Below, in pieces: positions 28,690 through 51,162 of a stretch of 64,000 bases of DNA (the first letter of the stretch is position 1; each line of letters begins with the position of its first letter). Under the pieces are notes generated by a model. That model was not told where the DNA came from and did no database searches. It saw nothing but the letters and a program-made list of their open reading frames with translations. Position numbers and translations under genes: made by a program. Source of the stretch: Mesocentrotus franciscanus (lineage: Eukaryota > Echinodermata > Echinoidea > Camarodonta > Strongylocentrotidae); NCBI GenBank assembly GCA_037976565.1, contig CP137683.1, positions 13,411,699-13,475,698 of the forward strand, read 5' to 3'.

Positions 28690-28756
28690 TCAGTATCTAT
28701 CTTTCCCTCTCTCCCCTTGCTCTCTCTCCCTCTCATCATCTCTCTCTCTCTCTGTT

Positions 28757-28812
<56 letters not shown>

Positions 28813-28832
28813 TGTCTGTCCCTCTATCCCCC

Positions 28833-28874
<42 letters not shown>

Positions 28875-28880
28875 TCTCAT
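28690..28880 (+). repeat. CT and (TA)n microsatellites
   Basis: CT repeats, then about 25 TA units (28759-28809), then CT repeats. Confidence 0.95.
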
Positions 28881-29023
28881 TTCCCTTTTCTCTCCTCTCT
28901 GTCTCCCTCATTTCTCCCCCATGCCCCATCTTCTCTCTTCTTTTCATGTCACTCTGCTATGGGATAATTTAATTGAGGTATTTTATCTGTTCTTCCAAGG
29001 CTTCTCCATCACAATCAGTATCT

Positions 29024-29028
29024 ACCCC

Positions 29029-29061
<33 letters not shown>

Positions 29062-29100
29062 TATCGCCATCTCTATATATCTATCTCCATCTCTGTCTGC

Positions 29101-29131
<31 letters not shown>

Positions 29132-29239
29132 ACTCTCTATCGCCATCTCTATATATCTATCTCCATCTCTGTCTGCCTGTCTGTCTCTCTCTCTCTCTCT
29201 CTCACTCTCTATCGCCATCTCTATATATCTATCTCCATC

Positions 29240-29287
<48 letters not shown>

Positions 29288-29326
29288 TATCGCCATCTCT
29301 ATATATCTATCTCCATCTCTGTCTGC

Positions 29327-29367
<41 letters not shown>

Positions 29368-29406
29368 TATCGCCATCTCTATATATCTATCTCCATCTCT
29401 GTCTGC

Positions 29407-29437
<31 letters not shown>

Positions 29438-29482
29438 ACTCTCTATCACCATCTCTATATATCTATCTCCATCTCTGTCTGC

Positions 29483-29513
<31 letters not shown>

Positions 29514-29558
29514 ACTCTCTATCGCCATCTCTATATATCTATCTCCATCTCTGTCTGC

Positions 29559-29589
<31 letters not shown>

Positions 29590-29636
29590 ACACTCTCTAT
29601 TGCCATCTCTATATATCTATCTCCATCTCTGTCTGC

Positions 29637-29670
<34 letters not shown>

Positions 29671-29672
29671 TA
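29024..29672 (+). repeat. Compound minisatellite, about 70-80 bp unit
   Basis: Eight copies of a unit made of CACTCTCTATCGCCATCTC, then TATATATCTATCTCCATC, then TCTGTCTGCCTGTCTGTC and a variable (CT)n run. Unit length varies only in the CT run. Long frames of 279-318 residues over this are repeats in disguise. Confidence 0.95.
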
Positions 29673-30700
29673 GCTCTCATTTCCTTTTCCTCTCCCTCTC
29701 CCTCTCTCAGTCTCTCTCTCCCTCTCTCCGTCTCCCTCACTTTATCTTTCTCCGCATGTCCCCATCTTCTCTCTTTTCCCTCTTCTTTTCATGCCACTCT
29801 GCTATTGGATAATTCACATTTCAATTCTCTATCGAGTCTTGTTCGCTGCCTTGACTATTCATCTTTCCTTTCTCCTTTCTCTTGCTGGGACACCACCCCC
29901 CCTCTCCTTCTCTCTCTCTCTCTCTCTCTCTCTCTAAATTGCATCAATCTGTCACAATCATTCCTGTCTCTCTGAATGAATCATTGTCTTGCAACCAATC
30001 TTTACTCCACTACAACTAAAAGTTTGATACCAAGAGTTTAACATCTTCAGAAGATAGCAAAAATTTAGTTCACCACACGTACCATTCAGTTCATGCACAC
30101 AATATGTGTAAGATAAATTCTTTGTATTACAGGATACAAAGAGCAGTAAAACGAATGTATATTAAGAAGGAAATACAGAAAGGTAAGAAAAGAGAGAGAG
30201 AGAGAGAGATATTAATTGACAGGTAGGACACTTTTTTTAAAGGCTAATTTTCATTGTGTCTCTGGTTCCCAGCAGACTATATCATTTGATATTCTTTGAT
30301 GTCATCGCCTGGATCTGATAATGTTGCATAAATTCATATTAGTAAACCTATGGAAGAACAAAAACCGATTGTGAAATTTAATAAAATTCCATCTACCCCC
30401 CTCCCCAAACACATAGTAACATTACAATGTTGATCTGAAAGACAGGCAGTCACTGACACAGATTGGAAAACACACCACTGAATCGTTTCATAACTTCTTC
30501 AATTCCCATCGATGCTTTAGCCCGTTTCTCTAAAAGCCCATCACATTATAAATACAAGATGATGGGTAGGATACTTAGCAAAGCAAAATGCTCAAGGGGT
30601 GTGTTATACAGCATGGTTTATTCATAGTGAAGGAGCACTTATGGACAGGAGATGTTACTGGAAAAAGGTTGTAAGTCCATTTGCAAAGCAAAAAAGGGTA
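29673..30700. other. CT-rich flank and non-coding stretch
   Basis: CT-rich to 29935, with a (GA)n run at 30190-30209. Text flanking the CT arrays is duplicated: TTTTCATGTCACTCTGCTATGGGATAATT (28943-28971) resembles 28605-28628 and 29787-29815, so the whole block is an older duplication. Confidence 0.6.
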
Positions 30701-47588: not shown

Positions 47589-47835
47589 GAGGTGTCGTGG
47601 TATAGTGGATATGTCACCAGACTGTGGATCACATGGTTCACGGTTCGAGTCCCACCGTGGCACTAATGTCCTTTGGCAAGCCATTAATCTACATTTGCCA
47701 CTCTCCGCCCGGTGTAAATGGGTAACTGATATCCTTGAGGACTTGCCGCTTTGACAGATCGGCTATAACCAGAATAATATTGTTGATGCACCGTGAGCGT
47801 CACGGCAAGATCGATATGAGCGCTAGATACATAAG
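47589..47835 (+). mobile_element. tRNA-derived SINE, copy 2
   Basis: The A-box-like TGGTATAGTGGATATG and a good B box GGTTCGAGTCCC head the element. The body matches the copy at 22573 through AATGTCCTTTGGCAAG, GCCACTCTCCGCCC and AAATGGGTAACTGATAT. Internal pol III promoter boxes are better kept than in copy 1. Confidence 0.85.
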
Positions 47836-48239
47836 AAGCCAATATTACACATGTACATTGTAGAAATTTACTTAATACCCCAGCCTCACAACAATTAAGA
47901 CCGACTACAGGCCGAACAAACTATCCTATGACCTCCAATGGTAAAAAAATCGGTCGATTTGGAGTCGGTATGGAGTTAGCCTATAATCTAGGCGGAGTGC
48001 CGAGCTTTTTTCTTTGCTGCTAGACTAACCTTAAGCAGAACGTCTGATACGGCGAGACTACGAACCGTGAGTCGCGAAGCGGCTCACCGCCTATAATCAC
48101 TGGTCTAGCTTTAGTCGTTGTTTTTATTATCGACCATGAATCCGTGGCAGTTTTTCGCACGAAAAACCTCATGAATACGAAATGAACTCAACCAATCAGA
48201 AACACGTATGGAGAAGAGTCTATGCATATGCATATTATA

Positions 48240-48277
48240 AATCACGTGACATTACGTCATTTTCTTCATCCAAGATG
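48240..48277 (+). promoter_or_regulatory. Compact promoter/start region of the RecQ-like gene
   Basis: Within 35 bp: CACGTG (48243-48248), ATTACGTCA (CRE-like, 48251-48259), a pyrimidine stretch and CCAAGATGGCGG (48270-48281). The last is a YY1-type start element in which the ATG (48275-48277) is embedded. A mirror-image version (CCGCCATTTTG) lies near the other TIR at about 48899-48909. Confidence 0.55.
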
Positions 48278-48632
48278 GCGGGTAGTTCATGCGACGACGA
48301 TCTTCTGCGAGAAGTTTATCATATGCGGCCAACAAACTAGGCATTCTAATGGAAAATTCAGAGAACTGCAGGAATCCGCTATTCGTAGCGTTATTGAAGC
48401 CGGCAGGGATATTTTTGTTGCATTACCTACTGGTTTTGGAAAGAGTGCAATATACCAAGCAATCCCCTTGTGCTGTGATTTTCTACGCGACCACGGATTC
48501 TATGATCATGATGACCCGAGTCGTTGCCGTTGGCAGAACGAAAGTACCGCCGTAAAAACTACCGGTACCACTAGTGGCACTACTGGCACTACCAAAACAA
48601 AGCAAGGGGGAACCACTAATTTGTCATTGTAA
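48275..48632 (+). pseudogene. RecQ-type DNA helicase, 5' fragment with frameshifts
   Basis: From the ATG at 48275 the frame reads MAGSSCDDDLLREVYHM and stops after 21 residues. A neighbouring frame then gives LSYAANKLGI. A third gives KFRELQESAIRSVIEAGRDI, followed at 48423-48446 by LPTGFGKS and then YQAIP. FRxLQxxAI is the RecQ motif 0 (adenine/Q motif) and LPTGFGKS is Walker A (motif I). After motif I the frame slips again and ends in a Thr/Gly-rich tail (TTGTTSGTTGTT) with a stop at 48630. Motifs Ia-VI, including DExH, are absent, so this is a truncated, non-functional gene piece. It lies wholly between the TIRs. RecQ helicases unwind DNA 3'-5'; multi-copy RecQ-like genes in marine invertebrates are remembered, not checked. 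Confidence 0.85.
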
Positions 48633-49540
48633 ATTTGATACGATAATTGTTTTACCATACAAAGATATATGTTTTATTGTTCACATAAAACTACAATTTT
48701 TTTAATTTTTTGATATTTCACAGTAGTAAAATGATCATTTTAAAGATTTTTTTGGTTTCATCTCCCCTTCTTCCTTTTTATTACCCCTATTTAGTAATGG
48801 ACGAGCGCAATCTTTTTCGTTGCGGTTTCTTATATCTGATTGGTCGAACGTAACATAGGTGTACCTTATTTGGTAGGGCTGTTGAATGATTCATAGATCC
48901 GCCATTTTGAATATATATGAATATTGATTAGCTAGACCAGTGATTATAGGCGGTGAGCCGCTTCGCGACTCACGGTTCGTAGTCTCGCCGTATCAGACGT
49001 TCTGCTTAAGGTTAGTCTAGCAGCAAAGAAAAAAGCTCGGCACTCCGCCTAGATTATAGGCTAGTATGGAGTCAGTTTGAAGTCGGTATGGAGTCGATTC
49101 GAGGTCGGTTTGGAGTCGGTAAGGAGTCTGTTTGGAGTCTGTTTGATTTGGAGTTGATTTGGAGTCAGTTTGGAGTCGGTATGGAATCGGTTTGGAGTCG
49201 GTTTGGAGTTGGTTGGAATCGGTTTGGAGTTGGTATGGAGTCGGTTTAGAGTCGGTATGGAGTTGGTTTGGAGTCGGTATGGAGTCGGTTTAGAGTCGGT
49301 ATGGAGTCGGTTTGGAGTCAGTATGGAGTCGGTTTAGAGTCGGTATGGAGTCGGTTTGGTGTCGGTTTGGAGTCGGTATGGAGACGGTTTAGAGTCGGTA
49401 TGGAGTCGGTTTGGATTCAGTATGGAGTCGGTTTAGAGTCGGTTTAGAGACGGTTCAGAGTCGGTTTAGAGTCGGAATGGAGTCGTTATGGAGTCGGGTT
49501 GGAGCCGGTTTGGAGCCGGTTTGGAGTCGGTTTGGCAGTG

Positions 49541-50582: not shown

Positions 50583-50630
50583 TTTTATTATTTTGTTTTG
50601 TTTTGGAGGATCTATCAAATCAAAGAGCCT

Positions 50631-50955
50631 GGGGGGTGTTTCATAAAGCTGTTCGTAAAGTTACGCATGACTTTACGAACGACTTGAATATGAAGTGCCA
50701 GATAGGATGCCCAAAGTTTTTCCTGATGTTTTAACAAAGTGTGACTATATTTCCAATAACCTCAATTAAATTATGGCAAAAAATATACCTTTGCATTAAA
50801 AATGATTGTTATAATAAGAATGTTAATCTGCAGCTGCACAATTCAACTTTAGTTGATGCAGTTAAAAATGATTGAACATCCCATTTGGCTTTTCATATTT
50901 AAGTCATTCGTAAAGTCATGCGTAACTTTACGAACAGCTTTATGAAACACCCCCC
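50631..50955. mobile_element. 325-bp foldback, GGGGGGTGTTTCATAAAGC ends
   Basis: Left arm GTGTTTCATAAAGCTGTTCG...ACTTTACGAACGACTT; right arm AAGTCATTCGTAAAGTCATG...GCTTTATGAAACACCCCCC. Each arm also holds an inner GTAAAGTTACGCATGACTTTAC hairpin. Same end style as 7171-7326 and 58176-58480. Confidence 0.85.
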
Positions 50956-51162
50956 TGAACTCATAATTTCTATAATCATTAATTAGATTAAAGATAAACT
51001 TTAGGCCCAAATCCATAACTTTTATTTCCACCCTAACGGCTAATCTCTACCTTTAAATCAATCTTCATGTTTCTAGAGTCACATGACTTCCTCTCGTCCG
51101 ACATGGCTCTCATGGTGCAATATCCTGCCTCATAAGGCCACGTGGCTCACAATGGTTATTGC

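Follow-up and report, generated by a model that had tools for sequence, protein, structure and literature searches.

Several described groups of DNA transposons bear on a repeat unit of ~1.08 kb that lies in a 64,000-nt stretch of the genome of the sea urchin Mesocentrotus franciscanus (assembly GCA_037976565.1, contig CP137683.1, positions 13,411,699 to 13,475,698; hereafter the window) and that carries the start of a RecQ-type helicase gene between long inverted ends. AcademH is reportedly a lineage of the Academ DNA transposons, found in animals and fungi to judge by the title of Kojima 2020 (Mob DNA 11:15). Kolobok elements target TTAA, and we know of no MuDR/MULE element with a RecQ gene of its own. 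In the literature, AcademH is described as having target-site duplications of 9 or 10 bp and encoding a helicase (PMC10045372), a RecQ helicase is reported for Academ (PMC3627910), and KolobokH is described as having a RecQ helicase as an accessory protein, located behind the transposase, and is reported only from fungi, with one further RecQ-carrying Kolobok in a rhodophyte (PMC9587614). Published accounts also put duplication length at 4-10 bp in MuDR and related prokaryotic elements (PMC10045372), and mention one case of a 9-bp duplication for MuDR/MULE (PMC3627910) and gene capture by MULEs (PMC9168764). A preliminary description of the window had stated that no common TA-flanked class of transposon is defined by a RecQ helicase; the wider premise that no class at all carries one is contradicted by these reports.

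The unit in the window is probably a non-autonomous DNA transposon, a large miniature inverted-repeat transposable element (MITE), derived through a single internal deletion from a longer element with a RecQ-type helicase gene at its left end. Its spread, with 9-bp target-site duplications, would have relied on enzymes supplied in trans by related full elements. Helicase-bearing transposons of this kind are already known, and the unit does not call for a new one.

Results

Inverted ends and target-site duplications

The window copy, which defines family A, spans positions 47977-49063, with ends that are 100% complementary over 134 nt and lie 819 nt apart, and the same 9-bp sequence, GTATGGAGT, flanks it on both sides (Table 1). 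The perfection of the ends had been recognised in the preliminary description, which made them slightly too short at 132 bp, and insertion into a minisatellite, now seen to have an 11-bp period, had been read correctly. The borders had also been read as TA duplications. In a first-look search of the 773-Mb host assembly 40 of 102 candidates were scored and 38 stretches (given L-numbers; C-numbers denote chromosomes or contigs of the assembly) were fetched, which together with the window copy gave 38 left/right end pairs (none in L033 and L034, two in L038). Both ends have TA as their outermost two nucleotides in 38/38 pairs, and an exact 9-bp duplication is present in 34 of them; two further pairs (L013, L026) have a 9-bp duplication with one mismatch, and the duplication is absent from L037 and L035, the latter pairing ends from two neighbouring pieces. 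Tc1/mariner or any other TA-duplicating class was rejected on these grounds, as the TA lies inside the end and the 9-bp duplication outside it.

Eleven family-A ends without a partner were read 1.6 kb inward. All but two (L090 and L091) proved to belong to very short units, 56-185 bp in length, with exact 9-bp duplications; for L085, one of these nine, the second duplication copy lies behind sequence that differs from the usual tip. The units in L086, L087 and L089 (106, 56 and 70 bp, respectively) contain little beyond one end and have exact 9-bp duplications, so that very small units may still be mobile. A single family-A end in L091 (C7:15821270-15822900), with no partner or duplication, adjoins an unrelated ~460-nt inverted repeat at 82%.

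Copy number, age and origin from a single founder

The outer 25 nt of the family-A end had 175 matches in the genome (85 forward and 90 reverse, at most 2 mismatches), and the reversed control had none. Among the first 100 of these 175 places, the spacing of pairs was mostly 1.0-1.09, 0.7-0.86 or 0.18-0.26 kb, with one pair 14 kb apart that proved to be a short family-A copy interrupted by foreign DNA. Thirty-seven copies were oriented, with the L035 pair excluded, and compared with the consensus of their class; mean identity was 99.5% for the 22 above 1060 nt and 99.6% for the 15 shorter ones, indicating that the spread was recent, as the preliminary description had supposed.

A protein search with the RecQ start returned 98 genome rows, of which 67 were taken as family A and the remainder were mostly 51-67% identical. 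A 32-nt marker taken from the right of the deletion junction had 62 matches (at most 3 mismatches; control 0), and in 62/62 it is preceded on the same strand by a RecQ start of family A, within 260 bp in 61 cases and at 7.6 kb in the remaining one because another element sits inside that copy. Five of the 67 RecQ starts are without the marker, three of these being in end pairs ~0.73 kb apart and the other two at C11 and C21. Since all 62 junction markers lie behind a RecQ start, the family-A short copies descend from one internal-deletion founder. They resemble an internal-deletion MITE in having two intact ends, one shared junction and many near-identical copies, none of those examined having full coding capacity, but at ~1.08 kb are long for a MITE and have kept a recognisable gene start.

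The RecQ-type gene start and its occurrence in two further families

The YY1-type ATG that had been proposed was found at 48275 in AAGATGGCGG context, and the RecQ-like motif 0/Walker A piece that follows it matches Pfam PF00270 (DEAD) with E 3.8e-5 at 23.9 bits, which is below the 26-bit cut-off. The piece is indeed frameshifted in the window copy, with two single-base deletions in the helicase frame relative to the long-copy consensus; in the family-A consensus the frame is open from the ATG through Walker A.

Two other families, B and C, are alike in layout: all three begin with 5′-TAGCCT and in each the RecQ gene is present from the ATG on, located at the same end and directed inward. Family B, seen in L081 with 101-nt ends at 97% and a RecQ start, has 184 + 176 genome matches to its end pattern (control 0), and ten picked pairs (four with RecQ) gave eight exact 9-bp duplications, one of 8 bp and one that was disrupted. 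Family C was found in L108-L111, with the left end seen in L108, L109 and L111 and the right end in none of the four. The RecQ starts of families A and B are 51.5% identical over 66 amino acids (aa), family-C rows are ~62-64% identical to the family-A query, and identity among the three ranges from 49 to 66%. Because families B and C share both the TAGCCT tip and the gene start, the RecQ piece is, as judged by sequence comparison, the transposon's own left-end gene and not a one-off capture. That the window unit is a deletion derivative carrying the element's own gene, as had been suggested from the single copy, is very likely; RecQ starts lie between family-A ends at dozens of places, and the start is multi-copy and shared by three families, contrary to what a chance association or a single captured host locus would give.

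Full-type helicases and their association with DUF6589

The idea that such units account for multi-copy RecQ-like genes held in part. When a 174-aa RecQ probe from C14 was used, 3 of 101 matched rows extended past residue 92, and a probe for the second helicase half gave 27 genome rows, with ~7 loci of the type closer to the short copies. No full helicase with a family-A start was present among 27 protein-search candidates, a result weakened by the chimeric query. The C14 helicase, a full-type protein to which family A is 48.5% identical over 68 aa, contains PF00270 and PF00271, matches Bloom helicase (E 3.6e-14) and matches TIGR00614 recQ_fam with E 2e-22, though under the cut-off of that model. 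On the opposite strand ~3.5 kb on, and convergent to this gene, lies a 377-aa open reading frame (ORF) with PF20231 (DUF6589; E 5.4e-26); Pfam analysis of two C14 ORFs found PF20231 in one and nothing in the other. All four relatives of the joined C14 DUF6589 ORFs, from 8000 candidates scored, were sea urchin proteins.

PF20231, which Pfam lists as being of unknown function and on which no paper was found in the literature searched, had 34 rows in the host genome and matches in 0/14 control genomes. After merging, 18 RecQ-like helicase loci and 29 DUF6589 loci formed seven pairs within 15 kb, and 7/7 were convergent, compared with 0.02 expected by chance. Some DUF6589 matches (for example C1:23713923, C15:10519865 and C13:11962414) lie in open frames of ~1800-1900 codons with no RecQ-like match within 15 kb, which suggests a different lineage or a fused protein. 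At L100 (around C7:5180039), an ORF that by eye is PIF1-type helicase-like sits beside a RecQ-like piece.

Other features of the window

The coordinates of the unit and its surroundings are collected in Table 1. A second gene, convergent to the first, may have its start in the right-hand interior. A sigma-70 scan and an ARAGORN scan (bacterial code) were also run and have no bearing on a eukaryotic promoter. The ARAGORN scan returned 0 tRNA genes in the window, and the segment at 47590-47665 has, by eye, a tRNA-derived look resembling the head of a short interspersed element. A second pair of inverted ends (GGGGGGTGTTTCATAAAGCTGTTCGTAAAGTTACGCATGACTTTACGAA...) at 50630-50680 and 50905-50956, near-identical over ~50 nt and ~225 nt apart, forms a MITE-like unit, and long open frames at 28717-29812 consist solely of simple repeats.

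Table 1 Features of the family-A unit in the window and of its insertion site
Feature	Position	Strand	Remarks	Basis
Left target-site duplication copy	47968..47976	.	9 bp, GTATGGAGT	duplication analysis
Left terminal inverted repeat	47977..48110	+	134 nt, starts TAGCCTATAATC	inverted-repeat comparison
Predicted promoter-like block ahead of ATG	48190..48277	+	CCAAT, TATAAA, CACGTG, ACGTCA and AAGATGGCGG in family consensus	
RecQ-type helicase gene start	48275..48544	+	ATG to just past Walker A (48426-48446); frame broken in window copy	
Internal-deletion junction segment	48545..48605	+	~55 nt of segment missing in shorter copy class	
Right-hand interior	48606..48929	-	inward-facing promoter-like block (CCAAT, AAAATGGCGG at ~48900)	
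Right terminal inverted repeat	48930..49063	-	134 nt	
Right target-site duplication copy	49064..49072	.	9 bp	
Host minisatellite, target of insertion	49064..49540	.	11-bp period; shorter stretch left of unit from ~47952	

Discussion

Because the start of a RecQ-type helicase gene and 9-bp duplications occur together, we favour, with some reserve, an AcademH-type parent for these elements. The duplications of family A (34/38) and family B (8/10 exact) have the 9-bp length that, alongside 10 bp, published accounts give for AcademH, and the gene start inside the ends is that of a RecQ-type helicase; the window copy differs in having neither a transposase nor a full helicase. In such a parent, the helicase gene would be read inward from the left end. 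An internal deletion would have left both ends, the inward promoter-like blocks on both sides and the helicase start, and proteins of related full elements, acting in trans, would have spread the derivative. The helicase might serve in excision or gap repair, and the transposase would be the DUF6589 protein encoded convergently to RecQ-like helicases. Given seven convergent pairs where 0.02 were expected, DUF6589 is a candidate for the transposase of the parent element, and we consider the case for and against this to be evenly balanced. A broader proposal, to which we lend somewhat less credence, is that DUF6589 is the transposase of a wide RecQ-bearing transposon lineage whose two genes converge, each transcribed towards the interior from one end; in that case many of the RecQ-like and DUF6589 gene models in sea urchins would represent fragments of such elements, and the short copies would have kept both inward promoter regions together with the helicase start.

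Several results weigh against this account of the parent. Longer copies with a full RecQ frame or a transposase, which the preliminary description had envisaged, were not found in family A, either at C16, C20, C5, C13 and C3:16.73 Mb or at the 11 unpaired ends; none of the family-A copies examined has a full gene, and transposase is absent from the short copies. The loci at C20, C5 and C13 are short copies. The C16 copy (L077, C16:30854000-30862800) is split by a 7.4-kb foreign element with many subterminal inverted repeats, and the C3 copy (L083 and C3:16747521-16748177) by ~12.9 kb of foreign sequence that was read at its left edge only. C14 is the sole locus with DUF6589 nearby among the seven whose helicases most resemble the short copies, the helicases of the other six convergent pairs are distant (21-33% identity rows), and the two of those six pairs that were read are both decayed and without long inverted ends, with Helicase_C present in both and a PHD finger next to the DUF6589 part in one. 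A search for inverted ends around the C14 locus gave nothing that exceeded shuffled background, and the structure model of a DUF6589 protein was unreadable (mean predicted local distance difference test score 36.5), so that no transposase fold was seen.

As to the insertions themselves, the 7.4-kb element in L077 is flanked on either side by the same 6 nt of the family-A copy, and the foreign DNA at C3 by the same 11 nt of its copy.

Other origins for the RecQ piece can be weighed against the same data. A KolobokH-type element would likewise carry a RecQ helicase, but the duplication is 9 bp here and lacks the TTAA motif of Kolobok targets. RecQ in the present families begins at the left end and not behind a transposase, and KolobokH is reported solely from fungi, the single additional RecQ-bearing Kolobok being from a rhodophyte (PMC9587614); an origin of this kind is extremely unlikely. 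It is improbable, though less strikingly so, that an unrelated element, for example a MULE-like one, took up the 5′ part of a RecQ gene of the host before being amplified. The long inverted ends seen here do suit MuDR/MULE, as do duplications of ~9 bp (PMC10045372, PMC3627910), and capture of genes by MULEs is on record (PMC9168764). However, the gene is present from its start codon onward in three families with different ends, always on the same side and pointing inward, with 49-66% mutual identity, which makes separate captures unlikely. Pfam scans of a few loci showed no MULE transposase, and no genome-wide MULE profile search was made.

The RecQ start might also have been retained because it encodes a working short peptide, such as a dominant-negative regulator of transposition. 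All three families retain the stretch from the ATG to just past Walker A, and in family A the frame is maintained over the 81 shared codons in 26 of 37 copies. The frame or the start has been lost in the other 11, and of 22 distinct substitutions 16 are amino acid replacements (0.73, against 0.75 expected without selection). This comparison, which gives no sign of selection on the fragment, has low power because the copies are young, and we regard a working peptide as very unlikely. A deletion derivative that retained the beginning of its own helicase gene remains the reading that we prefer.

On that reading, the RecQ gene fragments dispersed in this animal genome are coding sequence of a transposon, and this affects how counts of RecQ-like genes in such genomes should be interpreted. 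If the link with DUF6589 proves correct, a family listed as being of unknown function would gain a probable role, and the link would provide a two-gene layout in which helicase-assisted cut-and-paste transposition could be tested.
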